From contig NZ_SRSG01000019.1 in the NCBI RefSeq assembly GCF_005543295.1, positions 1 to 35,976 of the forward strand: a stretch of 35,976 nt of DNA, given 5' to 3'. The notes beneath the pieces are model-generated. The model was given only the letters and a program-made list of their open reading frames with translations. It was not told the origin of the DNA and made no database searches. Origin of the DNA: Halalkalirubrum salinum (lineage in GTDB: Archaea > Halobacteriota > Halobacteria > Halobacteriales > Haloferacaceae). Numbering within the stretch: position 1 is the first letter of the stretch; every line of letters begins with the position of its first letter. This document shows, in pieces, positions 22,015 through 35,416 of this stretch. The translations under genes and the position numbers were made by a program.

Positions 22015-22592
22015 ACCATCTTATCTCATCGGGCCCGTAAAAACTATTATGCTGACTGTTGGTTGGCGGGAATGGTCAGCTTGGAGATGGTTGGTGCCGA
22101 CAGCACAGCTATAATAGCGTTTGCAATTATTTTTTCACTTCGATTCAGGAACTGCTTGTTCATGCTCTCTCAAACCGTATTTCGAGGTGGCTATTGCAAA
22201 GAGTTGCAAACGTTACTATAGTGACAGCCTGCCACCGAACCGGCGTGGTCCTTGCCAGTGGGTGCTCAAACCACTTCAGCGAGACCGACAAGGCCCTTTC
22301 AGAGCTCAACGGTACCCCGAGGTCGCCCGCGTCGCCGACCGGCTTCCGGTTGCAGTCGACCGCCCCGGTGGGAGCCGTTGGATTAGCTCGATCGATTCGC
22401 GACCCGGAAGTCAAAGCCAGGCTCGGCTACCTGCTTACCAGTAGTTGGCATTATGACTTAGATTTATATACAAATCCGCTCTATCATAACCTGGAACCGT
22501 AATTTACGCGTTCGAAAACAAATAAAGAAGATCACACTGCCAACAACTGTTACGGTCGCAAAGGCAATCGGTGCGAGAAACGGGTAGTCGGC
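22015..22592. other. intergenic region containing a decayed gene
   Basis: About 580 bp between the CMD gene and the acetoacetate-decarboxylase-like gene. The outer parts are AT-rich with no intact gene. The centre, with higher GC, contains the DUF1641-like remnant at 22272-22439. A 444-bp open frame spans it but the N-terminal two thirds look unlike protein. Confidence 0.5.
22272..22439 (+). pseudogene. DUF1641 3'-end remnant
   Basis: The plus-strand peptide contains PVGAVGLARSIRDPEVKARLGYLLT, quoted here as PVGAVGLARSIRDPEV and KARLGYLL. It matches the C-terminal signature of DUF1641 proteins (PxGxxGLxRAxRDPxVqxGLGxLL). The usual N-terminal helical part is missing, and after LLTS the frame runs into AT-rich DNA with aromatic residues. 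DUF1641 genes often neighbour sulfide:quinone or disulfide oxidoreductases, which fits the location next to the CoA-disulfide reductase region. The evidence is one short motif, so the call is tentative. Confidence 0.5.
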
Positions 22593-23354
22593 TCAGACCG
22601 GCCCGATCGCTTCTCCTTCGTGGATCCAAAATTCAGCGTCAGCAGTGAATCGCAAAAGGGCTCGATCGCCGAGATCCAGCGTTGAGAGTGCCTGCGCACG
22701 TGGGTGCTCGCCAAACACGTAGTCGACCCGATCGCTGTAGGGCCACATCCCAAGGCGGCCGTCTAACTCGAGGCGTTCACGCAGCACCGTCCCGTTCTTT
22801 TCCGTGTAGCTCACTCCCGACTGACGCCACGGGAGCTGTGGCGGTCGATCGATCGCTATGTCAATCAGGCGCTCGCCGTCAACCCGAACCGAGGTGTGTC
22901 GTACCGACCCCTCGTCGCGATGGGTGATCTCAGCGACCTCCTTTGGATAGCCCCAGATATCGACGCCGAGCGCTCGCGCTGGCTCTGTCGTCACCGGGAG
23001 GTACTCGACGTATCCGCTCACGCCGTGGGTGAGCAACGACGCGTACGGGACTGTTTGTTTGTCTTCTGGGATCGCGGGGAGCAACACGCCAAACTCGTTG
23101 TACGGGTCGATGGCAGTGTCGTAACCAATTCGATCGTACTCGACACACAGGAACGTGATGGCCGCACGGCCCGGAGTTGCGCGAATCGGCTTGAGGGCAT
23201 TTGGTAACAGCGACGCGACCGCCGCTTTGGACGCCGAAAACACCGCGCCCGTAATCGTCGCGTGGGTCGAAAGCGGCAGCATCACACGGTGGCCGGTGGA
23301 GAGAACCGCCGGCTCGCCGTCGGTTCCGCCGATCGCGATCCGCTGGTCTGACAT
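22593..23354 (-). CDS. acetoacetate decarboxylase-family protein
   Basis: A 253-residue protein of the acetoacetate decarboxylase (ADC) superfamily. Evidence includes YNEFGVLLPA, the GYPKEVAEI segment preceded by ARALGVDIWG, and the C-terminal strand ALLRFTADAEFWIHEG. The GYPK lysine region corresponds to the conserved WGYPK of ADC-like proteins. Enzyme activity cannot be assumed; many members are not decarboxylases. ATG 23354 precedes the first conserved strand, while the upstream in-frame ATG (23456) reads into the copper ATPase gene. The copper ATPase stop is 41 bp upstream on the same strand, so co-transcription is possible. Confidence 0.85.
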   Translation of the reverse strand: MSDQRIAIGGTDGEPAVLSTGHRVMLPLSTHATITGAVFSASKAAVASLLPNALKPIRATPGRAAITFLCVEYDRIGYDTAIDPYNEFGVLLPAIPEDKQTVPYASLLTHGVSGYVEYLPVTTEPARALGVDIWGYPKEVAEITHRDEGSVRHTSVRVDGERLIDIAIDRPPQLPWRQSGVSYTEKNGTVLRERLELDGRLGMWPYSDRVDYVFGEHPRAQALSTLDLGDRALLRFTADAEFWIHEGEAIGPV

Positions 23355-23394
23355 ACCCCCGCTATGTGGACTATGAACCAAAGTGTTGTGCCGG

Positions 23395-25902
23395 TTACTC
23401 AAGCGATCGAAGCGTCGAGTTGAGTACGACAATAAGACTGCTCGAGCCCATCGCAAGCGCGGCCAACAGCGGGTTCAGTACGCCGGCGATCGCAAGTGGG
23501 ATGGCAACTCCGTTGTAGAGGAACGCCCACCCGAGGTTTTCCGCGATGCGCCGTTTCGTGTTGGCCGCAAGCGAGAACACGAACGGCAGCTCTGTAATGT
23601 CGCCGTCGACGAGAATCACGTCAGCTGCATCGGTTGCGAGCTTCGTCCCCGTGGCGAGTGCGATCCCAAGGTCTGCGGCCGCAAGCGCGGGCGCGTCGTT
23701 GCTCCCATCGCCGATCATTGCGACCTGTCCGCGGGATTTGAGCTGTTCGACGGTGGCCGCTTTCGCCTCCGGTGGCACATTCGCGAACACGGTATCGACG
23801 TCCGGGTGCGCTTCGAAGCGCGTCGTCGCCGGCTCGTCGTCGCCGGTGAGTACGACCAGTTCGCGATCGCCCGCCGCGAGTTCAGAGAGCACGCGATCCC
23901 ACTCGGGTTTTGGCTCGTCGCCGACCGCGATCACTCCTCGGACGACTTCCTCGAAACCGACGACAACCGCGACGTCTCCGTCGGCTTGGATTGACTCTGC
24001 GGCGGCGATCCAGTCGTTCGGATCTGCCCAGTCAGTAAACAACGCTGGGTGGCCAACTGCCGCGTCGATCGGTCCGTCTCTGCTGTCCGCACTGCGGACC
24101 GTGCCGTGCACCCCTCGATCGCCAAGCTCAACAGAGTCCATATCGGCAGTGACTGCCGCGTTTGCGGGCGCGACCTTGTCTTCTGAGACCGTCGCTGACT
24201 GCGTTTTGACCTTCGGGGCGGCCGCTCCGCCGTCGGCTGCGACGCGTTCAAACTCGTCTGTTGCTGGGCCGCTCTCGGCTGCAGCCGCAACGATCGCGTC
24301 GGCGATCGGATGCGGAGACGCACGTTCGAGCGCAGCCGCCACCGAAAGCACCAGGCCAGGATCGTCACCGATCGTCTCCGAGACCGTCATCCGACCACTC
24401 GTGAGGGTCCCTGTCTTATCAACCGCGATTATATCGACATCAGTTCCTCGCTCAAAGATTGCCGTTGACGCAACGACGATCCCGTGACTCGCCGCGGTTT
24501 TGATCCCACGAGCCACGGCCAGCGGGGTTGCGAGTCCGAGCGCACACGGACAAGACACGATGACTACAGTCAGCCCGACAAGGAGTGCAGCCGTCCCGCC
24601 TGCACCGGTGGACAGCGTCCAGGCGGTCGCTACAACCGCAGCGACGAGAACGAGCGGAACGAACACTGTCGCGAGTTTGTCGGCGACGCGCTGAACGCCC
24701 GGTGAGGAGCTTTGGATCTCCCACAGGAGTTCGACGAGCCGATCGAGCGTACTTTCGGCGGCCTCGCCGGCCCGAATCGTCACCGGTCGATCGGTCACGA
24801 CAGTTCCACCCCGAACGACATCACCCGGACGCTTTGTTCGCGGGACCGACTCACCTGTTACGAGTGCCTCGTCGATCGCCGCGACGCCGTCGACGACCTC
24901 GCCGTCGATCGGAATCCGCTCACCCGGCCGAACGAGCAACTCGTCGCCGGGGGCGATCGCTGCGACGGGGACGGTCGTCCCGTCGACTTGACGTGCCTCA
25001 GATACCTGAATGGCGGTCAGGTCAGAGAGGAGGTCTGAGGCGCGCCGTTTGATCCGTGACTCGTAGTAGTTGCCGGCGGTCACCACGAGGATAATCGCGA
25101 CAGTCACGTCGAAGTACAGGTCCGTTTGGCCGAGGAACATCGCGAGCGTGCTGTAGCCGTACGAGCCGAGTGCGGCGATCGAGACGAGCAGGTCCATGTT
25201 CGGCTGGCCGGCAGTTAGGCTGACGTACCCACCTCTGAGGATGGGATAGCCGGTGTAGAACAGCACGATCGACGTCAAAAGCCAGATCTGTGTAAAGAGA
25301 TACAAGCCGTCGAAGCCGCCGAGATCAACGAACGGCTCGTAGCCGAAGTACGTCGGATACAAAAACAGCGCGTACCACACCATCGTCATCATCCCGAACA
25401 ACCCGCCGCCGATGAGGAACTTGACCACCTCAATGTCTCCACTGGGATCGGGATCGGGTTCAATCGAACGATGCGAAGCGTCGTAGCCGTACCCTGAGAC
25501 GAGTTCCGGCAGTGAACGGCGATCGACAGCCGCCGGATCGTAGCTGATTTTTAGCGTATCAGTCGCGTAGCTCGCGGTCGCTTCAGCAACGCCGGGGTGT
25601 GCCTGTGCTTGCGATTCGAGGAACGTCTCACAGGTCGAACAGTGCATGCCCTCAACACTGAGGTAGGCGCTGTCACAGTCGTCGATCGTCTCCGACTGTG
25701 CATGACCCTCTGTAGCGTGTTCAGTGACTTGCGTGTCAACAATCGTATCGTCGACTGAATCAGCGTCAAGACGTTCAGCTTCTTCGGTGCCGAGCACACG
25801 AGCAACCTCAAGACAGCCTTGACAGCAATACACTCCGTCGATCGCCTCGTCAGTGACTGGAGGATCGGGTGTCGAAAGCCCACAGAGGGTACATGAGGAC
25901 AT
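23395..25902 (-). CDS. P1B-type copper-transporting ATPase, FixI/CcoI-like
   Basis: An 835-residue heavy-metal P-type ATPase. The N-terminus has a FixI/CcoI-like Cys-rich domain (CTLC at 4-7; CCQGC at 26-30) followed by an HMA domain with GMHCSTC (Cys88, Cys91). The membrane metal site is CPCALG; the catalytic aspartate is in DKTGT, the SPHPIA His-Pro motif and MIGDGSNDAPAL hinge are present. The FixI-type extension and position beside the ba3 oxidase operon, divergently transcribed, suggest copper delivery to the oxidase rather than only detoxification; this is inference. It is preceded by a 64-residue membrane protein gene 22 bp upstream on the same strand. Confidence 0.93.
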   Translation of the reverse strand: MSSCTLCGLSTPDPPVTDEAIDGVYCCQGCLEVARVLGTEEAERLDADSVDDTIVDTQVTEHATEGHAQSETIDDCDSAYLSVEGMHCSTCETFLESQAQAHPGVAEATASYATDTLKISYDPAAVDRRSLPELVSGYGYDASHRSIEPDPDPSGDIEVVKFLIGGGLFGMMTMVWYALFLYPTYFGYEPFVDLGGFDGLYLFTQIWLLTSIVLFYTGYPILRGGYVSLTAGQPNMDLLVSIAALGSYGYSTLAMFLGQTDLYFDVTVAIILVVTAGNYYESRIKRRASDLLSDLTAIQVSEARQVDGTTVPVAAIAPGDELLVRPGERIPIDGEVVDGVAAIDEALVTGESVPRTKRPGDVVRGGTVVTDRPVTIRAGEAAESTLDRLVELLWEIQSSSPGVQRVADKLATVFVPLVLVAAVVATAWTLSTGAGGTAALLVGLTVVIVSCPCALGLATPLAVARGIKTAASHGIVVASTAIFERGTDVDIIAVDKTGTLTSGRMTVSETIGDDPGLVLSVAAALERASPHPIADAIVAAAAESGPATDEFERVAADGGAAAPKVKTQSATVSEDKVAPANAAVTADMDSVELGDRGVHGTVRSADSRDGPIDAAVGHPALFTDWADPNDWIAAAESIQADGDVAVVVGFEEVVRGVIAVGDEPKPEWDRVLSELAAGDRELVVLTGDDEPATTRFEAHPDVDTVFANVPPEAKAATVEQLKSRGQVAMIGDGSNDAPALAAADLGIALATGTKLATDAADVILVDGDITELPFVFSLAANTKRRIAENLGWAFLYNGVAIPLAIAGVLNPLLAALAMGSSSLIVVLNSTLRSLE

Positions 25903-25924
25903 CTACTCGGATAGTGCGATTGGT

Positions 25925-26119
25925 TCAGTGTGCGGCTGTCTCGGCAGTCGTATCGTGTTCACTCCCAGTGGGACTCATTGCGAGGTACAACGACCCCGCG
26001 ATCAACACCACGTTTAGTGCCGCGACGGCGACGATCGGGGCTGGCTTGAACAGGAGGTAGCCGACAACAGCCGGCAACGCAGCCAGTGCAACGAGGCTCG
26101 CATGTCTTGGTTCGACCAT
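25925..26119 (-). CDS. small two-helix membrane protein, unknown
   Basis: A 64-residue protein with two hydrophobic segments (SLVALAALPAVVGYLLF and IVAVAALNVVLIAGSLYLAM) and a polar C-terminal tail containing His, Glu and Asp (GSEHDTTAETAAH). It is upstream of the copper ATPase by 22 bp and is probably transcribed with it, divergent from cbaD. A TATA-like TTATACTAT is seen about 30 bp upstream on the minus strand. Likely an accessory to oxidase or copper handling, from position only; I do not recognise the family. Confidence 0.7.
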   Translation of the reverse strand: MVEPRHASLVALAALPAVVGYLLFKPAPIVAVAALNVVLIAGSLYLAMSPTGSEHDTTAETAAH

Positions 26120-26185
26120 CTGTCGTGTATGTTTCGTGCGATAGTATAAGTTCGTTTCCCGTCCCTTATCTTCGAGAAGACCCGG

Positions 26186-26222
26186 GAGATTTATATGCTA
26201 TATTTTCCAAGACCGTCACACG
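26186..26222 (+). promoter_or_regulatory. TATA-like promoter of the ba3 oxidase operon
   Basis: GAGATTTATATGCTA (about 26186-26200) is a good haloarchaeal TATA element about 28-30 bp before the cbaD ATG (26223), implying a very short or absent leader. The divergent copper-ATPase unit starts about 100 bp away, so the two units may be co-regulated from this spacer. Confidence 0.55.
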
Positions 26223-26381
26223 ATGTCCACTGAGACACCGAAGCGGGAGATTGATCACGAGGAATTCGATCCAAAAGGTACGCTTGCTCTCATTCTGATA
26301 TATTTCGTGATTCTTTCCATACTGTGGGTCTTCATGTACTTCATCGAGTTCCTCGGCAATGACCTGACGGTGATCGGCTAA
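26223..26381 (+). CDS. cbaD: ba3-type oxidase small subunit (CbaD/IIa-like)
   Basis: A 52-residue single-span membrane protein: an acidic/basic cytoplasmic start (MSTETPKREIDHEEFDPKG), one helix (TLALILIYFVILSILWVFMYF) and a short tail ending in TVIG. It is the first gene of the operon and its TAA overlaps the ATG of the subunit II gene (TAATG). Small one-helix subunits like this are standard in ba3-type oxidases (subunit IIa; CbaD in Natronomonas pharaonis). It is too short to be picked up by many gene finders. Assignment rests on size, topology and position. Confidence 0.85.
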   Translation: MSTETPKREIDHEEFDPKGTLALILIYFVILSILWVFMYFIEFLGNDLTVIG

Positions 26382-26881
26382 TGCACATTCACAACTACGA
26401 GAAAATCTGGCTGGTACTGGCAATGTTGCTTATTGTCGCGTTTATTTCGACGGTCGCGTACGGCGCAACCGCCATGGGCGTCGACATGATCTCCGACGAT
26501 GAGGACACGATCGACCCCGGCGCGCTCGATGAGGATCCACGATTTGCCGATCCACGCGTCGAACAGGTCGGCGAGGATGAGTATGAGGCGTACGTCGTTG
26601 CCCAACAGTACGTCTTCGAGCCCGATCCGATCGAAGTCCCAGAAGGCAGCACGGTAACATTCTATGTGACCTCACGTGACGTAATCCACGGCTTCGAGAT
26701 CGTCGGAACGAACGCGAACGCAATGGTCGTCCCCGGTGAGGTGTCGACGTTTACTGTTGAGTTTTCCGAGGCAGGCGAATACGGCGTGTTGTGCAACGAG
26801 TACTGCGGAGACGGCCATCACGTGATGGAAGGTAGCGTAACTGTTGTACCTGAAGAGGAATACGACGGAGGTGACGAATGA
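26381..26881 (+). CDS. cbaB: ba3-type cytochrome oxidase subunit II (CuA)
   Basis: A 166-residue subunit II. One N-terminal membrane helix (WLVLAMLLIVAFISTVAYGA) is followed by a cupredoxin domain outside the cell. The CuA ligands are visible: His103 in VIHGFEI, then Cys138, Cys142, His146 and Met149 in CNEYCGDGHHVM. The single-helix form and short length match ba3/CbaB subunits. It accepts electrons, probably from halocyanin, and passes them to subunit I. Start overlaps the cbaD stop (TAATG) and its stop overlaps subunit I (ATGA). Confidence 0.95.
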   Translation: MHIHNYEKIWLVLAMLLIVAFISTVAYGATAMGVDMISDDEDTIDPGALDEDPRFADPRVEQVGEDEYEAYVVAQQYVFEPDPIEVPEGSTVTFYVTSRDVIHGFEIVGTNANAMVVPGEVSTFTVEFSEAGEYGVLCNEYCGDGHHVMEGSVTVVPEEEYDGGDE

Positions 26882-28668
26882 GCGAATCACTCGAATCTGG
26901 CGCGCCGAGTTTCCTCGATCAGTTCCCTGCGGAGGCAAAATTGGTTCGTGCAACGCTTTGGAGCTCGTTCACCGCACTCATTCTCGGTGGGCTATTTGGA
27001 ATTATTCAGACACTGCATCGGACGGACATCCTCCGCGTGATGGACTCGTCGTATTACTACACCGTGTTGACTGCCCACGGGGTATTGATGGTAGTTTCGT
27101 TTACGATCTTCTTCCTCGTTGGTGTGTTCACGTGGGGAGTCGTCAGGAGCCTCGATCGACCACTCGTTGACATGCGTTACTCGTGGACGTGGTACGGCCT
27201 GATGGTGCTTGGGACACTCATGGCTGTGGTCGCGGTTCTCGGTGGGTTCGTCGATACAACCGAGATGAGTGCTGACGTGCTGTTCACGTTCTACGCGCCA
27301 CTACAGGCGCATCCGCTGTTTTACGGCGGACTTGCGATATTCCTGATCGGTTCGTGGCTTGCGGGCGCTGACTGGTTCCGGGCGTGGTACGCCTGGAAGC
27401 GCGAACACCCTGATGAACGGATCCCACTGCAGACCTTCATGGCGTTGACAACAATGCTGATGTGGTACATCGCCTCGATCGGCATCACGATCGCGGTCGT
27501 CGTCTTTTTGTTACCGTGGTCGCTCGGGCTGTTTGATGAGGTGAACGCACTTTTGACTCGAACGCTGTTTTGGTTCTGGGGCCACCCAGTCGTGTACTTC
27601 TGGTTGATGCCGGCGTACATGCTGTGGTACACCGTCTTGCCAAAACTGGCGGGCGGCCGGCTGTTCAGCGACCCACTCGCGCGGGTGGTGTTCGTATTGT
27701 TCCTCCTGCTTTCGACGCCAGTTGGCATCCACCACCAGTACGTTGATCCGGGGATCGCCGAAGGATTCAAATTTATCGCGATGACGAATACCATGTTCCT
27801 GTTGTTGCCGAGCCTCCTCACCGCATTTACTGTCGTCGCGAGTATGGAGTACGGTGCTCGGCGCCGGGGTGGGACCGGCCTGTTCGGTTGGCTTCGAGCG
27901 TTGCCGTGGGCCCGTCCGGCATTCACTGGGATGGCGCTTGCGGGATTGATGTTCGCCGCCGGTGGCTTCAGCGGGATGATCAATGCCGGGATGAATATCA
28001 ACTACCTCGTGCACAACACGCTGTGGGTCCCCGGGCACTTCCACCTCACCGTCGGGACCGCTGTGGGACTTACCTTCATGGCAGCGACCTACTGGCTATG
28101 GCCACAACTGACAAACAAACCGCTGTTTAGTCGGCCGATCGGTCTCCTGCAGGTCGTCATGTGGTTCGTCGGGATGGCACTCATGTCGAATGCAATGCAC
28201 GTTTCGGGGCTGTTCGGTGTCCCACGACGGACTGCCGAACCGCAGTACGAGGGGTTCGACTTCACACCGGCGTTTGGGACGATGAACGAGTTCGACATGC
28301 AGATCGCAGTCGGTGGGACACTATTGTTCCTTTCACTGGGGCTGTTCATCGGGAACGTCGTGTTGACGTCGCTTGGCAGCAAACAGAGTGGCCTGGGAGA
28401 CAGCCTGCCACCGGCGCTGTCCGGCCCGAGTGACTCTCCTGTGGTTCTTGATAATCTCAAGCTATGGCTTGGGATCGCGCTGGTGCTCGTTGTGTTGGCG
28501 TACTCCTTGCCGCTCGTGAGCATCATCTCTCGTGGGGGATTGTTCGGACCTGGTGTCGGGACCTACCCAGTGATTATCGACACCTTCTCTGCAGTCGTAG
28601 AGTCAGTGGCAACCACAGGAATCATCGAGACGCTTGCCCAGTTTGAAGTGGGGGTGATCGTCCAATGA
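26878..28668 (+). CDS. cbaA: ba3-type cytochrome oxidase subunit I
   Basis: A 596-residue haem-copper oxidase subunit I with 12 or more membrane helices. Key elements are the low-spin haem histidine (His67) in VLTAHGVLMV, the CuB His-Tyr region GHPVVYFWLMPAY, the CuB pair in VGIHHQYVDPG and the high-spin/low-spin haem ligands in VPGHFHLTVGTA. Sequence and gene order are ba3 type (B family), a high-affinity terminal oxidase. It overlaps the subunit II gene by 4 bp and the next small gene starts at its stop (ATGAGC). The oxidase lets the cell use low O2 along with the alternative acceptors encoded nearby. Confidence 0.96.
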   Translation: MSESLESGAPSFLDQFPAEAKLVRATLWSSFTALILGGLFGIIQTLHRTDILRVMDSSYYYTVLTAHGVLMVVSFTIFFLVGVFTWGVVRSLDRPLVDMRYSWTWYGLMVLGTLMAVVAVLGGFVDTTEMSADVLFTFYAPLQAHPLFYGGLAIFLIGSWLAGADWFRAWYAWKREHPDERIPLQTFMALTTMLMWYIASIGITIAVVVFLLPWSLGLFDEVNALLTRTLFWFWGHPVVYFWLMPAYMLWYTVLPKLAGGRLFSDPLARVVFVLFLLLSTPVGIHHQYVDPGIAEGFKFIAMTNTMFLLLPSLLTAFTVVASMEYGARRRGGTGLFGWLRALPWARPAFTGMALAGLMFAAGGFSGMINAGMNINYLVHNTLWVPGHFHLTVGTAVGLTFMAATYWLWPQLTNKPLFSRPIGLLQVVMWFVGMALMSNAMHVSGLFGVPRRTAEPQYEGFDFTPAFGTMNEFDMQIAVGGTLLFLSLGLFIGNVVLTSLGSKQSGLGDSLPPALSGPSDSPVVLDNLKLWLGIALVLVVLAYSLPLVSIISRGGLFGPGVGTYPVIIDTFSAVVESVATTGIIETLAQFEVGVIVQ

Positions 28669-28892
28669 GCGACGCGACCACAAAGGCAGGTATCCTTGTC
28701 GGCGGGGCGGTGTTGTTCGTGATCCTCTGGGAGATCCGAAGTGCGATCGGCCTCTTTTTGGGGATTGACACGCCGGCAACGCCGTACATCGCGGTAACCG
28801 TGCTCATTGTCGCGGTTGTCGCTGTCGCGCTCAACCTCGGGTACCTCGGCGGCGGCCGAGCTGCGAGTGGAACGGAAGAAAAGAGCGACTAA
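28665..28892 (+). CDS. cbaE: ba3 oxidase-associated small membrane protein (CbaE-like)
   Basis: A 75-residue protein with two hydrophobic helices (AGILVGGAVLFVILWEIRSAIGLFL and YIAVTVLIVAVVAVALNLGYLG) and a charged tail. Start overlaps the subunit I stop (ATGA), so it belongs to the oxidase operon. Its position after cbaA corresponds to CbaE in Natronomonas pharaonis, a small subunit of the four-subunit ba3 oxidase. The sequence alone is not diagnostic; order and coupling support the call. Confidence 0.8.
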   Translation: MSDATTKAGILVGGAVLFVILWEIRSAIGLFLGIDTPATPYIAVTVLIVAVVAVALNLGYLGGGRAASGTEEKSD

Positions 28893-28909
28893 GCGCTCGC
28901 AAGCTCGTA

Positions 28910-29599
28910 ATGTCTGCATCAGCTTTGCCTGACTTTGTGCGTGATACAACGCCGCTGCAGCGATCTCTCGCGGTCGCAGTCGCCGTCGCGGTCGCAGTCG
29001 TCGCCTCGATCGCTGGGTATCTCCAGGCTGCTTCGCCTGCGATCACCGATTACCGATCTCTCGTGTACCCCGTGGTTTGGATCGTCGGTGGATCGGCAGC
29101 AACGGTGTGGGTGCACGGGGCCGTTCCTGTTCGATCGAACCGGGCGCTCGCGGTGATAATCAGCAGCGGCTACGTGACGGCGCTGCTTTGGGTGAGTGGA
29201 CTCATTCGGGCGGGTGCCGGGATGGGTTCGCTGTCGATCTCGCCAGCGATTCCTGGGTGGGGGCCGATCGTCGTATACGAGGGATCGATAATTGGGTTTT
29301 CTGTCGTGCCGTTCAAATGGATCGGCTATCTGGCACTGGGGTACATCGTCTACGTCCTCGTCGCTGGTGCCGGCGGATCAATAAAAGCCGCAGCCCTCGG
29401 GTTTGTCACGTGTGTGAGCTGTACAGCCCCGCTCGTCGGCTCGGTTGTGGGGGCGATCGGTGGGGCGGGTGCGAGCCGAGCCGTCGCCACTGCTGGATAC
29501 GATATCGCGACTGTCGTGTTTCTTGTGACCATCGGTCTGCTCGTGTTTGCAGTTGCGCGAACGACTGCTACCTGTTCTGTCTCGGAGACTTCGGTCTGA
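28910..29599 (+). CDS. DUF7546-type membrane protein, oxidase-linked
   Basis: A 229-residue membrane protein with about seven hydrophobic helices. A distinctive CVSCTAP motif sits in FVTCVSCTAPLVGSVVGAIGG, near a Gly/Ala-rich helix, which could bind copper or haem. I recognise it as the DUF7546 type seen next to haloarchaeal ba3 operons. It follows cbaE by 17 bp. A role in oxidase assembly or copper insertion is plausible from location and the CxxC, but unproven. Confidence 0.75.
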   Translation: MSASALPDFVRDTTPLQRSLAVAVAVAVAVVASIAGYLQAASPAITDYRSLVYPVVWIVGGSAATVWVHGAVPVRSNRALAVIISSGYVTALLWVSGLIRAGAGMGSLSISPAIPGWGPIVVYEGSIIGFSVVPFKWIGYLALGYIVYVLVAGAGGSIKAAALGFVTCVSCTAPLVGSVVGAIGGAGASRAVATAGYDIATVVFLVTIGLLVFAVARTTATCSVSETSV

Positions 29600-29841
29600 T
29601 CGGGTTGTGTTTTTTGCGATATATAAATGTTAGTATTGTACAATAGTACCAAAACTATATGTCTGCTGTTGCCGTATCATCACTCGAGTGCGTATGTCAT
29701 CACAATCTCAGTTGCCCGTCCGAGCGGAGTGGTACATAACGGAAACTCCTTCAATCGCGCCGGGTGCGCCGGCGAGAGGCACCGGCACACAACCGACACG
29801 CGATCGTGACGGAAACCGACGCCGCCGGGGGAGAGGGTAGC
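29600..29841. other. intergenic region before the TSUP gene
   Basis: About 240 bp between the DUF7546 gene and the TSUP gene. It holds a strong TATA-like GATATATAAATG near 29619-29630, the TATTGTACAATA palindrome listed separately, and a GC-richer second half. Short open frames here do not look like real proteins. If transcription starts near the palindrome, the leader would be nearly 200 nt, unusually long for this group. Confidence 0.5.
29634..29645. promoter_or_regulatory. TATTGTACAATA palindrome upstream of the TSUP gene
   Basis: A perfect 12-bp palindrome identical to the core of the 18-bp palindrome before tusA (4923-4940). It lies just downstream of the TATA-like GATATATAAATG, the same geometry as at tusA. 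A degenerate form (ATACGTACAATACTC) precedes the small gene at 31614. Confidence 0.55.
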
Positions 29842-30852
29842 ATGGAGCTGTTCGGAATCGCCGTGAGCGTGCTCGTGACGTTCGTCGGATTCGGCTTCGT
29901 CGTTGGGTTATTGTACGGCTTTTTCGGGATGGGCGGATCGTTCCTGGTCACGCCTGCGCTGCTCGTGATGGGCTATCCCGCACGAGTTGCGATCGGCAGC
30001 GCGATGGCGTTCGTTTTCGGGACGGCGATTATCGCCATGATCAAACACCACGGCATTGGGCAGGTCGACTACAAGCTTGGCCTGCTAATGGCAGTCGGAC
30101 TCAGCGTCGGTATTGAAATAGGCCGAATCGGCGTGTTTTACTTGGAGACACTTGGTGCGGCAGAGGTGGTTATCGGCGCGACGTACGTCGTCTTGCTCGC
30201 TGGGATTGGGCTGTTGTTCACAAAGAATGCGATCGAAGACGACAGCGACGAGTCTGACGCGAACGTCGACGAAGATATTCCCGAACTCGCCCGGCAGATT
30301 CAATCGTACAATATTCCGCCGATGGTCACCCTCAGCGGCGGCACACGAGTGTCGATTTGGGTCATCTCGGTGGTTGCTATCGCGGTGGGTATCCTCTCTG
30401 GTTTTTTGGGGATCGGTGGGGGCTTTATTCGGCTGCCAGCGATCCACTATCTAATCGGGATGCCGTTACCAGTCGCTGTCGGAACGAACCTGGTTGGCGG
30501 AGTCATCTCCGGTGGTGCGGGGGCGTTCACTTACGGGCAGGCCGGCGGTGTCGAGTTATCGATCGTCGTCCCGCTGTTGTTCGGAAGCGCGCTCGGCGCA
30601 CAGATCGGTTCGGCGTCGACAGTCGTGGTTGATGAGGACGAAACCCGAATCTACTTTGGGTTGCTGTTGCTTATCGCTGCGGTTGCGGTCGCGATCGACC
30701 GAGTTGGGACTATCCTTGGAATTGGATACCTTGGCACCGTCAGTTCCGTGTTGATCGTTGGTTCCGCAGTCATCGTCGCGAGTATCGTGATCGGGAGTGC
30801 GATTCGATCGGTTCGGTCTCGTGGGACTGACTCTGCGATGCTCTCTGATTAA
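29842..30852 (+). CDS. TSUP (TauE/SafE)-family sulfite/sulfur-compound exporter
   Basis: A 336-residue TSUP-family transporter. Two homologous halves are seen: VVGLLYGFFGMGGSFLVTPALLVMGYP near the start and VGILSGFLGIGGGFIRLPAIHYLIGMP in the middle, each a typical TSUP repeat. About eight membrane helices are present, with an acidic loop (DDSDESDANVDEDIPE) between halves. TSUP members export sulfite or sulfoacetate, or import sulfur compounds. ATG 29842 is preferred: GGGGGAGAGGG lies just upstream, while an in-frame GTG at 29764 adds a non-homologous stretch. It is convergent with nosL, 18 bp between stops. The upstream palindrome links it to tusA. Confidence 0.9.
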   Translation: MELFGIAVSVLVTFVGFGFVVGLLYGFFGMGGSFLVTPALLVMGYPARVAIGSAMAFVFGTAIIAMIKHHGIGQVDYKLGLLMAVGLSVGIEIGRIGVFYLETLGAAEVVIGATYVVLLAGIGLLFTKNAIEDDSDESDANVDEDIPELARQIQSYNIPPMVTLSGGTRVSIWVISVVAIAVGILSGFLGIGGGFIRLPAIHYLIGMPLPVAVGTNLVGGVISGGAGAFTYGQAGGVELSIVVPLLFGSALGAQIGSASTVVVDEDETRIYFGLLLLIAAVAVAIDRVGTILGIGYLGTVSSVLIVGSAVIVASIVIGSAIRSVRSRGTDSAMLSD

Positions 30853-30870
30853 GGGTCGTTTTGCGGTCGA

Positions 30871-31449
30871 TTACGATCGGATACCATCGATCAGTTCGCG
30901 ATCGATATCAACTGCATCAACAACGGTTCCGCTGTATTCGTCTGCGAACGTAGATGCCTCTTCGGTGTCGGAAAATGGTATGATGTCTGGACCCATCGCT
31001 CCGCCGACGTCGCTGCCCGCAACGACGACGAGCGTTGATTCAGGCCGGTAGCTGTCTGTGTTGAGATGTGGTGAGATTGAGCGGTCGCTTTCGCCCCTGA
31101 TGTCGTACTCAACACGACTGTAGTCAGTCAGGTACGTCACCAATGGTTCCCACCCTTCATCTTCGCGATCGAATCGATACGAGTACGTACATGTCCCGCT
31201 GCAGAACCACGCCGGGCCATCTCGATCGAGCCGGTCCTCAGCAAAAAATACCTGTCCGGTCGGCCCCGGGTGTTCGTTGATCACCATCCCACACTCGTCG
31301 CAGGTCTGTCCGTCGTCGAGTGACACCGCCTCTGGCGCTTGCTCGTCGCTTCCGAGACAGCCGGCGATCGCGGCCGTTGTTGTGATTCCGATCGCTCGAA
31401 GAAGTTTTCGGCGGGATTGGTCCTGATAGCGCTGCCTATTTCGAGCCAT
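30871..31449 (-). CDS. nosL: NosL-family copper lipoprotein
   Basis: A 192-residue NosL. The N-terminus has a twin-arginine motif QSRRKLLRAIG (RR at 13-14) and a lipobox IAGC with Cys31, so it is a Tat lipoprotein outside the membrane. The copper motif CDECGM has Cys50, Cys53 and Met55, and the C-terminal NosL part has GAMGPDIIPFSDTEEASTFA. NosL delivers Cu(I) for nitrous oxide reductase maturation. ATG 31449 is chosen because upstream in-frame ATGs (31512, 31482) add hydrophobic residues before the Tat motif. It lies 26 kb from nosDFY and shares no operon with it, sitting instead beside the ba3/copper cluster. Confidence 0.93.
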   Translation of the reverse strand: MARNRQRYQDQSRRKLLRAIGITTTAAIAGCLGSDEQAPEAVSLDDGQTCDECGMVINEHPGPTGQVFFAEDRLDRDGPAWFCSGTCTYSYRFDREDEGWEPLVTYLTDYSRVEYDIRGESDRSISPHLNTDSYRPESTLVVVAGSDVGGAMGPDIIPFSDTEEASTFADEYSGTVVDAVDIDRELIDGIRS

Positions 31450-31592
31450 ACTAGCTAGTTTGAGTCGGATGAGATAGGCCATATGGTACACCCCTCGAAT
31501 CACGCGACTCAAACTCTTTGAAGACCTGGGTATGAGTTTGGACGCGTGTACCTCGTTCCCGCCGCTTGAGAATCGCCACTTGAGGTTTTATG

Positions 31593-31608
31593 ATATACGT
31601 ACAATACT
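31593..31608. promoter_or_regulatory. degenerate copy of the TATTGTACAATA operator
   Basis: ATACGTACAATACTC at 31594-31608 matches the right half of the tusA palindrome (GTACAATACAC) with one change and is imperfect on the left. It lies 5 bp before the ATG at 31614 and after a TATA-like TTTTATGATA, the same geometry as at tusA. This could be chance. Confidence 0.3.
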
Positions 31609-31613
31609 CGTGT

Positions 31614-31862
31614 ATGAGCTACCAAACCGATAGCCAGTCTCCGATGATCGGCCCAATTTCCGTGTTCACGCTCATTTGGGCTGTGCTTGTCGGACTCTCA
31701 GCAGTGGTTTTCGCCGCGGTCGTGGCGATCCCATTTCAAGCAGAACTCACCGCGTTGTTGTCGACTGCAAACCCTGCGATCTTTGGAACCGCGTTGTTCA
31801 TGATCGCGGTCGCCGTGACGTACGTCATATCCACGCGTGTGGTTCGGCGATCGGTCCAATAG
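31614..31862 (+). CDS. small two-helix membrane protein, unknown
   Basis: An 82-residue protein with two long hydrophobic segments (VFTLIWAVLVGLSAVVFAAVVAIPF and IFGTALFMIAVAVTYVISTRVV). It has no Cys or His motif. ATG 31614 (MSYQTDSQSP) is preferred over ATG 31590, which lies upstream of the operator-like site. It is divergent from nosL with about 165 bp between starts. Function unknown; family not recognised. Confidence 0.7.
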   Translation: MSYQTDSQSPMIGPISVFTLIWAVLVGLSAVVFAAVVAIPFQAELTALLSTANPAIFGTALFMIAVAVTYVISTRVVRRSVQ

Positions 31863-31933
31863 ACGCTGACCGCGGTCGATCGCGACTCGAATTCCGGAAT
31901 GATTAACTTTCTCATCGGATAACGGGCGTATGC

Positions 31934-32006
31934 GGGCCGGTGGGGTAGCTTGGTATCCTTCGGCCTTCGGGTGGCCGTAACCGCAGTTCGAATCTGCGCC
32001 GGCCCA
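31934..32006 (+). tRNA. tRNA-Pro (anticodon CGG)
   Basis: A 73-nt tRNA without encoded CCA. Acceptor stem GGGCCGG pairs with CCGGCCC before discriminator A32006. The anticodon arm is CGGCC-TTCGGGT-GGCCG, giving anticodon CGG (codon CCG). The T arm is GCAG-TTCGAAT-CTGC. No intron is seen. Its 3' end is repeated several times downstream (32138-32476), the pattern expected where elements integrate into a tRNA 3' end. Confidence 0.95.
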
Positions 32007-32137
32007 CTTCTCCCGCAACGCAACACGAGGAGCGATAGCGACGAGTGTCCGTTGCGGGGAAGTAGCCACGCAGATTCGAGCAGGGAAGTCGCAGCCCGGG
32101 AAGCGAACGAAGTGAGCGACCCGGACCGTCTTCCCGA

Positions 32138-32476
32138 GTTCGACATCTGCGCCGGCCCATTTTTACCCCACGTCACAACCGTGAGCGATCGTGTTTCCGT
32201 GTTCGTCATCTGCGCCGGCCTACCTTTCCCGCATCTAACACCTGTCAGCCGAAGCCATGTCGGTCTTTGGGTGGTTGTAACCGCATCCCCGCGAGCGACG
32301 CGAACGGGGGCCAGCGAGACGAGTGGAGCGAGTCTCGCCCGGGGTCGGATCTGCGCCGGCCCATTTTCACCCCACGTAACAACGGTGAGTGATAGCGATT
32401 GGGTGCCAGCGAGTCGCAGCCCGCGAAGCAGAGCGAGCAGGACCATTTGGCACGGCTTCGAATCTGCCTTGGCCCA
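32138..32476 (+). repeat. array of tRNA-Pro 3'-end copies
   Basis: Four further copies of the tRNA-Pro 3' end follow the gene: 32138-32159 and 32201-32222 (variants of GTTCGACATCTGCGCCGG + CCCA), 32345-32363 (TCGGATCTGCGCCGGCCCA) and 32456-32476 (TTCGAATCTGCC, TTGGCCCA). Each copy is followed by a related pyrimidine-rich tail (TTTTACCCCACGTCAC, CCTTTCCCGCATCTAAC, TTTTCACCCCACGTAAC, CATTACCGCATCAC). At 32262-32285 a piece like the anticodon arm (CTTTGGGTGGTTGTAACCGCA) also recurs. None has a complete acceptor stem. They look like duplicated attachment sites or decayed tandem tRNA copies. Confidence 0.75.
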
Positions 32477-33223
32477 CATTACCGCATCACTCTTTCACAT
32501 ACTCCCTGACGGTGCTCAGGTATGGACTAGCAGGTGTAGAGATGCATTTATAGAATCACCTGTGGCAGAAATCGTTCCCTGCTTCCTGGCCGGGGCCGTA
32601 CCGAAGTTGTGAACAAGAAGGAACGCCCGTAGTTGTTTGGAAACACCTGTATCCATCGCAGTATGACTAATTTATCATATAGAAATACAGTTATATTTAT
32701 TGGAATATTTGCCATTAGTAGGCTCCACTACACTGTTCACAACTGGGGTATAATTCCGATATACTCCTCGGGAATGAACGAAGTCTGACCACGTTTTGTT
32801 GTAAATTCTGCAATACAGGCTGAGAAAGAATCATGCTAGCAGTCAAACTGTACTTAGAATATTCACTTCAGAAACGCACGTCTCGACCAAAATTACCTAA
32901 TTGCACCGCAGGTTTTCATAGAACTCCCCAAAATCACGATATCGTAGACGCGATCGCCCTGGGCACTGGCGCGGTTCTACGTCGCCAATTTAGTCGTAAG
33001 CACAATCTTGATAGTAGGGACAAATAGTGTGAATATTGGACCGCAATAAATATATAGAATAGTAGATTAAACATAGAAAAAGTAATAATCCAAACTGTTT
33101 TAACTACGCCTACGCAGAAACCGCGACAGTGGGCGATCGCACTTGTGTACGACACTAATCATCCACTCGACACTCGTACTACATAAGCAGATACAAAAAA
33201 CAAATGAGAGAAATAGCTTGGTC
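32477..33223. other. AT-rich region without a recognisable gene
   Basis: About 750 bp of mostly AT-rich DNA. A 64-codon plus-strand frame at 32833-33027 has a basic, low-quality sequence I do not believe. An 11-bp inverted repeat AGTTGTGAACA occurs at 32605-32615 and, inverted, at 32734-32744, about 140 bp end to end; it may be a mobile-element trace or chance. The stretch looks like old insertion or decay debris next to the tRNA array. Confidence 0.45.
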
Positions 33224-33469
33224 TCAGCCACCGTGTTTGCGGTACCAGACCACCTCACCGACGGGGGACTCCTCCTCACTGATATCCAACCGGCTAAGGA
33301 ATAACTCTCGAATCGCAAGCGTGACAACTAGCTCGACCGGTTCGTTGTTCTCGTCGATGACAGTGACGACATAGTGGCCATCCCGCTGATCGACTGCGTG
33401 AATCGTCCCGATCGACCAGCGTTCAATATCGTGAGTCGGTTTCCGGGCATGGAGGCGATCATGGTTCAT
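33224..33469 (-). CDS. small conserved-looking haloarchaeal protein, unknown
   Basis: An 81-residue acidic protein, beta-rich: THDIERWSIGTIHAVDQRDG then HYVVTVIDENNEPVELVVTLAIRELFLSRLD and a C-terminal VGEVVWYRKHG. It looks like a small barrel or SH3-like fold. I do not recognise the family. ATG 33469 (MNHDRLHARKPTHDIER) is preferred; the ORF extends to 33538 through a sequence unlike the rest. It lies 127 bp downstream of the broken DAC gene on the same strand. Confidence 0.6.
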   Translation of the reverse strand: MNHDRLHARKPTHDIERWSIGTIHAVDQRDGHYVVTVIDENNEPVELVVTLAIRELFLSRLDISEEESPVGEVVWYRKHGG

Positions 33470-33596
33470 ATGAGGAAAAAGATCGCAAGCAGTGTTTACT
33501 TTTCGTCTTTCCGTTCTGTCGAAACCGAGGTGAGCCACATAGGTCGATTACAGTGGTAGCGAGGCGAAAGCCACCGGCTTCAACCGTGGGAGGATG

Positions 33597-34151
33597 TCAA
33601 TCAGGTCGCCACCGGCCGCCGATCTCCTCCTGTGGGTAGTCCTGATACGTGCCATCAAGATACGTAGTGACACGTCCGTTTTCTTCACTGAGCGTGATTG
33701 CCCACAGGACCTTCTTTCGGAGTGACGTTTCCAGGGCACTCATGTGTTTAGTTCCCATCCAGTCAGGATACTCGAGGTACTCAACTGCCGGCACCTCCGT
33801 GGGGCTGGGGCTCCGAACGCGAACCATCTATCGTTGAATTGTCCCGTCTCCAGTTACAATGATCGCGCCATCCCGCCTAAATTCGACGTCTTCTGCGACC
33901 CGTCGAAATCTCTCGAGTGAGTCGTGTACGATCTTACACCGATCGGTCGGCCAGATATTCTCCCCAAGTGGGTCGGTGTATTCCTCGAAATCGGTTTCTG
34001 CTACGACCAGAAAGTACAAACTAGGGCCACTCACGTAGCGATCGTCCCACCTTTCAAATTCCATACTCAACGTCTCAGCAACATACCGGATCTGATCCAT
34101 AAGATCCTGGCTGGTGGCATACTTTTTCAACACCTGATCGAGTTCGTCCAT
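33597..34151 (-). pseudogene. DisA_N/DAC-domain gene interrupted by an in-frame TAG
   Basis: Two halves sit in one reading frame, separated only by TAG at 33830-33828. Half 1 (107 codons, ATG 34151) runs from MDELDQVLKKYATS to the DAC motif DGA (residues 94-96) in RRDGAIIVTGDGTIQR. Half 2 (76 codons) continues MVRVRSPSPTEVP, YPDWMGTKHMSALETS and ITLSEENGRVTTYLDG, matching the GTRHRAA and SEExGxVxxF parts of diadenylate-cyclase domains. In DisA the second motif is RHR; here it is KHM (135-137), so catalysis may already be altered. One CAG-to-TAG change would restore a 184-codon gene. Readthrough or a sequencing error are alternatives to pseudogenisation. An ATG immediately after the TAG could permit a separate second product. 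Confidence 0.7.
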
Positions 34152-34519
34152 TTGTCTCTTATTTACATAGATGCGGATCGTTATTAATTCTGTTCAGACC
34201 GAACTCACAATACTGTTGAACGAACCCGATCTATCCAACAGCCACATTTGTCAGTTGATACTGAATCCGACACAGCATCGAGTGAGAGGATAGTGGACGA
34301 AGACCGAGCGCGAAGTACGCCGCCGATCACTCTTGCAATTATCTGACTGCACTCTGATTGAAGCTTTGCCTTAGCAATCCTGACGAGAGGGCGAAACAGA
34401 ATCTGATCATTAGTCTGTAGAGGCTACCAGTAACCCGATTCACTCGTTGGGTGATTTCAGGTCATCCGTGAAGTAACCCGGCATCGTTGTTAGTTAATAA
34501 GAAGATCGGAATAACGCAG
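34152..34519. other. intergenic region, no feature seen
   Basis: About 370 bp between the DAC-like gene start and the DUF5518 gene stop. The sequence is moderately AT-rich. I see no tRNA, no repeat and no credible open frame. Confidence 0.4.
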
Positions 34520-34918
34520 TTAGCTGCCTCCGATGTCTGTTTCAGTAGCGATGTACACACCGAGATACCCCCCGAGCGCGCTCAGTCCGACACTCCAAAT
34601 GAGCGCAAACACGAATCCAAACAGAAGCACAAAGACGAACCCACCAGGAACTGCCATACCGGTGCCCATACCGTCGCTAATCATAGGGCCCGTCATAAAG
34701 AACCCTCCGAACACGAAAAACACCAAAAACAGCAAGAGAAACGGAAGGGCCGCGATCGCACCCGAGAGCGCACCGACACGGATGCCCCCGGTACGATCTC
34801 CCTTCTGAAGATAGCCTGCGACCATACCACCCAGAATCGGGGAAAACCCAGTGAATGATAGCACAACTGTAACGACTGCACCGATAACTGCGTTTATAAT
34901 CGTGTCTCCTTCGCTCAT
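34520..34918 (-). CDS. DUF5518-family membrane protein
   Basis: A 132-residue protein with four hydrophobic helices. The N-terminal half, INAVIGAVVTVVLSF then FSPILGGMVAGYLQKGDRTGGIRVGALSGAIAALP, is the recognisable DUF5518 pattern, common in haloarchaea and methanogens. Gly-rich helices and a KGDR(T)GGxRVGALSG loop are conserved in the family. No function is known. It appears to be a single-gene unit on the minus strand. Confidence 0.88.
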   Translation of the reverse strand: MSEGDTIINAVIGAVVTVVLSFTGFSPILGGMVAGYLQKGDRTGGIRVGALSGAIAALPFLLLFLVFFVFGGFFMTGPMISDGMGTGMAVPGGFVFVLLFGFVFALIWSVGLSALGGYLGVYIATETDIGGS

Positions 34919-35416
34919 ATCTCTCTCCTCTACTGCCAGTGATTATAATTCATCGGCTCTGTTGGTTGTTCGATTGTCGTTGTGGCTCGCCGAAATCAGG
35001 CTTCCGTTCTATAATTCTAAAATCGATGATATAACGCTGTTCGGGACCCGCGGGGACACTGTCGTTAGGACAGACGTGGGCGACGTAGTCGCTGGTGGCA
35101 ACGATGGTTGGCCTTTGATGAATTTGCGAATCGGCACGATTCTGGCGTCGGCCGTTACCGGCCTCACCGCGGTTGACATCCAAATCGGCGGCGCTGTTGA
35201 AATACTCAAAGATTGATAGGTACAGGTTACTGAATACAGAGCGCGTGTCTTGCAGAAAGAGCGATGTTCTATCGATCCGCGGATTTATCCAGGGACCGCT
35301 TGCACGCTACGTCTTCTTCGAAACGCTCACTGTGACAGTGGGATTCCTGCCGCCCACCCTGCGACGAATTATATCTCACCCCTGCCCTTTATTTTTTGAC
35401 TTCCCTAAGTCGAACT
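34919..35416. other. region without a recognised gene
   Basis: About 500 bp upstream of the aldo/keto reductase. A plus-strand frame reading VVRTDVGDVVAGGNDGWPLMNLRIG around 35060-35140 (quoted in two parts: VVRTDVGDVVAGG, NDGWPLMNLRIG) is partly protein-like but has no clear start and no family I recognise. The last 60 bp contain a TATA-like TTTATTTTTTG (about 35388-35398) for the reductase gene. Confidence 0.35.

Follow-up and report, generated by a model that had tools for sequence, protein, structure and literature searches.

A tRNA-Pro(CGG) gene in Halalkalirubrum salinum is followed by several partial copies of its own 3′ end, and the question is how such copies came to be there. The window analysed here is the whole stretch of 35,976 nucleotides in which the gene is found (contig NZ_SRSG01000019.1, positions 1 to 35,976, forward strand). 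A reading of this DNA from the letters alone, referred to here as the sequence-only reading, had offered two explanations, i.e. repeated integration into the tRNA 3′ end, leaving stacked attachment scars in an old integration hotspot, or the decay of tandem tRNA copies.

The array downstream of tRNA-Pro(CGG)

The block repeated downstream consists of the last ~20 nt of tRNA-Pro(CGG), from the TTC of the T-loop to the 3′ end (31987–32006). In a repeat search of the window, ATCTGCGCCGGCCCA-type copies are found at 31992 (inside the tRNA gene), 32145, 32208 and 32349, and a search with a 15-mer and at most two mismatches gives no further copy on either strand of the window. When the tail is shuffled with its dinucleotides kept (n = 2,000), the mean is 0.001 copies vs 3 observed. 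The parts of the array are as follows.

31934–32007, + strand: intact tRNA-Pro(CGG), the sole ARAGORN tRNA in the window (also repeat search, family D2)
32007–32062, + strand: trailer hairpin of unit 1 (CTTCTCCCGCAACG...CGTTGCGGGGAAG), from reading of the sequence; relatives also have a hairpin at that position
32067–32153, + strand: second hairpin of unit 1 (covariance model R1, E = 6.8e-24, 92.4 bits; this sequence is itself among those used to build R1)
32139–32159, + strand: first downstream 3′-end copy, TTCGACATCTGCGCCGGCCCA (repeat search, shuffles)
32202–32222, + strand: second downstream 3′-end copy, TTCGTCATCTGCGCCGGCCTA (repeat search)
32260–32285, + strand: partial tRNA copy of 26 nt with anticodon arm, variable loop and 5′ T-stem strand (family D3, 85% identity to 31960–31985)
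32287–32339, + strand: two successive hairpins (CCCCGCGAGCG...GAACGGGG; GCGAGAC...GTCTCGC), between the partial tRNA copy and the third 3′-end copy, from reading of the sequence
32348–32363, + strand: third downstream 3′-end copy, GATCTGCGCCGGCCCA, with a degraded T-loop (repeat search, shuffles)
32392–32470, + strand: second hairpin of unit 4, of the same family as in unit 1 (R1, 44.6 bits, E = 1.9e-9)
32457–32476/32477, + strand: fourth, degenerate 3′-end copy (TTCGAATCTGCCTTGGCCCAC; TTCGAATCTGCCTTGGCCCA) (repeat search)

ARAGORN finds no second tRNA in the array. The sequence-only reading had correctly placed the tRNA gene and the 3′-end copies behind it, as ARAGORN, the repeat search and the shuffles show, and the anticodon-arm-like piece that it noticed is present as the partial tRNA copy. 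It had counted four decayed copies, of which, more precisely, three are near-exact and one is degenerate. It had also missed that the spacers between the copies are structured, two of them holding the same hairpin family.

The units differ in make-up. In unit 1 the second hairpin carries an inverted T-arm, E′ (CGCAGATTCGA, 32069–32079), has a core with a GTCGCAG/ACCGTC internal loop, closes on the first direct copy and folds with −44.3 kcal/mol. The second 3′-end copy closes a unit of only 63 bp, in which a hairpin core is missing. The third unit opens with a partial tRNA copy that extends as far back as the anticodon arm; two hairpins of another kind and then the 3′ end follow. The partial tRNA copy forms the start of what we term a type II unit, and such units are also carried by loci L027, L030, L032 and L049; the hairpin region behind it is part of a region matched elsewhere in related genomes.

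The trailer sequence CTTCTCCCGCA (32007–32017) is well conserved across many genera. Within it, CCCGCA is the complement of TGCGGG, which lies at the 5′ end of the tRNA (31929–31936).

Occurrence in Halobacteriales and the integration reading

The array at tRNA-Pro(CGG) is not a singular case in the genomes analysed, which were sampled by region. In the source genome, a tRNA gene is trailed by its own 3′ end in 20 of 43 cases, covering many isotypes (at most 2 mismatches in 17, within 700 nt downstream, a scan independent of the hairpin model), while upstream copies and 5′-end copies are each found at 0 of 43. Covariance model R1, which describes the second hairpin and was built from 13 sequences including unit 1 of the window, matches 67 of 78 relatives with up to 37 matches per genome. 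Within the phylum it matches 62 of 65 genomes of Halobacteriales vs 0 of 231 others. One genome of the order with zero R1 matches (G007) nevertheless has own-3′-end copies at 12 of 30 tRNAs, and a methanogen of the same phylum has them at 0 of 31. The hairpin-repeat array family is specific to Halobacteriales.

BLASTN of the locus against 79 relatives finds the tRNA and also, for several genera, its tail; the remaining tail matches are located downstream of other tRNAs. In four complete or near-complete genomes (the source genome, G038, G015 and G071) most R1 matches are in the sense orientation just downstream of tRNAs of many isotypes, and a Haloferax genome displays the same arrangement. 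Several R1 matches with no ARAGORN tRNA show an evident tRNA 3′ end when the sequence is read (ARAGORN misses intron-bearing tRNAs), and a minority lie outside a tRNA context. On named contigs there are 30 core sites after a tRNA, most with a 19/19 copy of the tRNA's own 3′ end 8–11 nt beyond the core.

A tRNA-tail-like core (GGAAGTCGCAGCCCGC...GAGCAGGACCGTCTTCC) is also found at non-tRNA sites, e.g. L149, L158, L162, L171 and others. These cores are preceded by a CCCGCGAGCG...GAGCGGG hairpin and sit in a larger repeated haloarchaeal sequence (GGCTGGGGAGGCGTGAGG...GGGACTCAAAGGGGCAG; ...GGGGCTTTC). Cores at such sites suggest a dispersed repeat with a mobility of its own.

Spread of the units by known viruses or plasmids was considered and rejected. 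The phage collection has no unit and the viral contigs no exact match; the plasmids give two weak matches to the unit of the window and zero to the consensus hairpin. A description of the arrays was not found in the open-access literature, and an earlier account in subscription papers is possible.

The idea of stacked attachment scars, left at tRNA-Pro(CGG) by integrative elements, has points in its favour. tRNA-targeting tyrosine integrases use blocks of the kind copied here, from T-loop to 3′ end. Prophage ends with partial tRNA copies have been reported in Haloquadratum (PMC3119063). In G015, ~1.9 kb (L048, 2532–4419), mostly with no open reading frame of 90 aa, lie between tRNA-Pro(CGG) and a later 3′-end copy with a hairpin unit; this interval is perhaps a decayed integrated element. 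However, the flanks of the array are collinear in the two species of the genus that were compared: sister species G001 matches the window on the left at 22550–32017 (89%) and on the right at 33213–34214 and 34332–35013 (96%), and its tRNA-Pro(CGG) is without the first two units of the window array. Ten open reading frames around the array were tested, among them NosL, TauE/SafE, DUF7546, COX1, DUF7861 and an aldo/keto reductase, and no integrase, which the sequence-only reading had advised looking for, is among them. The downstream genes that it had taken to be broken are intact and conserved in G001 (DUF7861 95%, a 107-aa open reading frame 97% identical). It had held that the same array in all relatives would speak against integration; as it is, the number of units varies. 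Furthermore, small uniform units with common hairpin cores are found at most tRNA isotypes, and the many isotypes, the uniform spacer size and the common cores are not what scars of unrelated gene-bearing elements are expected to leave. Collinearity and the genome-wide pattern across the order thus largely refute attachment scars at this locus. Together with the integrase-free open reading frames tested, they led us to reject this explanation, which we regard as very improbable, along with the old hotspot. Integrases may at times use the 3′-end copies. Partial tRNA copies in haloarchaea should not, on their own, be taken as evidence of integrated elements.

A segment of ~115 bp in the window (22107–22221) is 87% identical to a segment in G001 downstream of the tRNA-Pro array (L035, 2529–2640), and the window near 33212 is without it. 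It is a possible small mobile element.

Architecture and turnover of the units

A typical unit of ~100–155 bp begins with a trailer hairpin, continues with a second hairpin that has the inverted cognate T-arm (E′) as its outer arm, and ends in the direct 3′-end copy (E), which repeats the 3′ end of the tRNA in question between the T-loop and the discriminator base. The edges of the copied block are precise: over 265 copies, a set in which some neighbouring tRNAs and spurious matches dilute the profile, identity rises ~2 nt before the TTC of the T-loop and drops 1–3 nt beyond the end of the tRNA. The first copy follows at a median spacing of 130 bp (quartiles 115–144). In 83 of 97 cores, E′ fits the cognate T-arm better than the mean of the non-cognate ones, and the acceptor part of E′ shows no cognate-specific match in the 97. 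A fully complementary inverted 3′ end was therefore rejected as a general rule, although single cases exist (Haloferax Leu UAA). Another class of unit, at the tRNA-Arg(GCG), Arg(TCT) and Ala loci of genome G000, copies the T-stem and acceptor strand only, and there the copy is preceded by a hairpin closing on inverted acceptor sequence.

The arrays turn over fast. Between G000 and its sister species G001, copy number is unequal at 16 of 29 orthologous loci; Gly(CCC) is not independent evidence of a missing copy, since the G000 contig stops 74 nt beyond the tRNA. Units are gained, lost, swapped and given new cores, with breakpoints at 3′-end or T-loop boundaries. The two units at tRNA-Ser(TGA) stand as P-Q in one sister species and as Q-P in its relative. 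At this locus and at Gln(TTG) the sister species have the trailer hairpin in common and differ in the core between the T-loop boundaries. The tRNA-Gly(CCC) array of G000 extends to where contig C45 starts, and an apparent continuation of the array, in the opposite order, opens contig C3; with contig ends inside an array, the arrays seem to break assemblies.

In 11 homologous unit pairs (12 substitutions) the E copies differ by 0.055 substitutions per site vs 0.058 in the spacers, the former value being biased low because copies are found by similarity. There is thus no detectable constraint on the copies, and the near-exact ones are best read as young; selection keeping E equal to the tRNA was rejected on these 11 pairs, in which E does not evolve more slowly. 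The sequence-only reading's decay of tandem copies was partly right, in that the units stand in tandem with the tRNA 3′ end as their boundary, and decay affects the distal ones.

The cores follow the genus more than the isotype. The nearest neighbour of a core is a core of another tRNA of the same genus in 45 of 97 cases (label shuffles: mean 24, maximum 42 in 2000), a moderate clustering by genus, and a same-anticodon core of another genome in 5 of 97 (2.3 expected). Inheritance of one ancestral unit per isotype was tried as an explanation and is unsupported by these neighbours.

The reading that we favour, and hold to be probable, is that the tRNA-Pro array is one member of a family of tandem units found in Halobacteriales at tRNAs of nearly every isotype and renewed by recombination or slippage at the E repeats, together with exchange of cores at the T-loop. 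The ~20-bp E repeats, with hairpins between them, would recombine or slip (E × E), and such events would duplicate, delete and permute whole units; unit loss, tandem amplification (e.g. four identical 156-bp units in G038) and permutation would follow. The T-loop sequence GGTTCRAATC, near-identical in all tRNAs and found at either side of each core, in inverted form at the left, could serve as microhomology through which cores pass between units of different tRNAs. By such exchange the tRNA-specific outer arms would stay cognate and the cores would be common within a lineage. From the sequence comparisons we infer that the arrays are birth-and-death cassettes driven by recombination at short tRNA-derived repeats, i.e. 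self-renewing by-products of, or passengers on, tRNA 3′ ends. The recombination is read from outcomes, in a pairwise comparison of sister species. The cores at non-tRNA sites, the moderate strength of the clustering by genus and the possible weak constraint on the hairpins (below) count against this reading.

A non-coding mobile mini-element could also produce precise units. A trans-acting enzyme, e.g. a T-loop tyrosine integrase, a casposase-like Cas1 or a hairpin-recognising Y1/RAYT-type transposase, would insert hairpin elements of ~100–155 bp at the tRNA 3′ end and duplicate the block from T-loop to 3′ end. In agreement with this, presence or absence of a unit is exact at E, and adjoins the tRNA, at Arg(CCT), Gln(TTG), Pro(CGG) and Lys(TTT); the edges of the copied block are sharp; and cores are common to isotypes within a genus and also dispersed away from tRNAs. 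The units are also palindromic, as substrates of Y1 transposases typically are. However, a simple target-site duplication would not make the inverted cognate arm E′, and some of the additional units are either distal (Leu TAA, Ser CGA, Asp) or tandem copies of near identity, as from slippage. The absence of units from the phage collection and of exact matches from the viral contigs also argues against it. Such an element is therefore an unlikely source of the units. It is likewise doubtful that Halobacteriales have an active dedicated system, with its own recombinase, which turns the T-loop-to-3′-end blocks of tRNAs into gene-free tandem hairpin cassettes at many isotypes per genome.

The units are always in the sense orientation and downstream, which would also suit a functional RNA module in the pre-tRNA, acting in termination, in tRNase Z processing or in the release of tRNA-3′-fragment-like RNAs. 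Consistent with this, the alignment of the second hairpin shows both-sided paired changes at 8 of 12 consensus pairs, and 70 of 97 folds reach z < −2 relative to mononucleotide shuffles. An RNA, RttR, is made from the E. coli counterpart. For Haloferax volcanii, two RNA 3′ ends have been located behind a tRNA-Pro gene (PMC7237163), and these would fit readthrough into such a tail. On the other hand, units are missing at about half of the tRNAs of the same genome, copy number is unequal at more than half of the sister-species loci, E copies evolve like spacers, and at orthologous loci the hairpin is replaced wholesale. A functional RNA module is thus quite improbable, and the arrays are probably not selected RNA. 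Variation is somewhat lower in stems than in loops, and 18 of the 32 pairs with changes remain paired; the hairpins may be under weak structural constraint.

Comparison with known systems

The closest likeness to the haloarchaeal architecture is found in the E. coli tyrTV operon (rttR/RtT RNA, tpr). Its sequence, checked here, shows three 178-bp units in tandem behind tRNA-Tyr (tyrV), and every unit combines an inverted copy of the T-stem (GGGGAAGGAT) with hairpins, a direct 3′-end copy (AATCCTTCCCCCACCACCA) and a trailer. To our knowledge an array of this type occurs at one locus only in E. coli, whereas the haloarchaeal arrays are found at many isotypes across an order. In Salmonella the rtT RNA locus varies in copy number as a 175-bp VNTR (PMC2658671). 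No sequence similarity between the two is detected with Rfam: RtT RNA gives no match at E ≤ 1 in window positions 31900–32900, and 15 related loci give the tRNA and unrelated matches only. A known RNA family was thus rejected for the haloarchaeal units.

REP/BIME and MITE-like repeats are likewise short palindromes common within a lineage, and a core dispersed over tRNA and non-tRNA sites, in a two-hairpin repeat, is a trait of this kind. The haloarchaeal units differ in being tandem, with outer arms and a flanking direct repeat that match the resident tRNA. Integron cassette arrays (attC hairpins) also consist of tandem cassettes with short-repeat bounds and imperfect hairpins, which are gained, lost and reordered. 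Here, however, the units are gene-free and of 50–200 bp, their boundary is the tRNA 3′ end, and the open reading frames tested include no integrase. The attachment sites of tyrosine integrases share the direct repeat of the T-loop-to-3′-end block, but the present units are gene-free, ~100–155 bp long and found at many isotypes, with no island or filled site at the locus in the two species compared and no integrase among the ten open reading frames tested. CRISPR and casposon arrays have a constant repeat and unrelated spacers, whereas the haloarchaeal spacers carry a common hairpin core.

The t-elements of Haloferax volcanii, which have a tRNA-like structure and are cleaved by RNase P and tRNase Z (PMC4946936), are also haloarchaeal tRNA-related sequences outside tRNA genes. 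Unlike these, the array units show hairpins in place of a tRNA-like fold (ARAGORN, folding).

A tandem array built on a tRNA 3′ end is known from E. coli tyrTV; the genomes analysed here have the same architecture, in unrelated sequence, at many isotypes across an archaeal order. This breadth and the turnover between sister species make the origin of such arrays directly testable, e.g. in the genetically tractable Haloferax.
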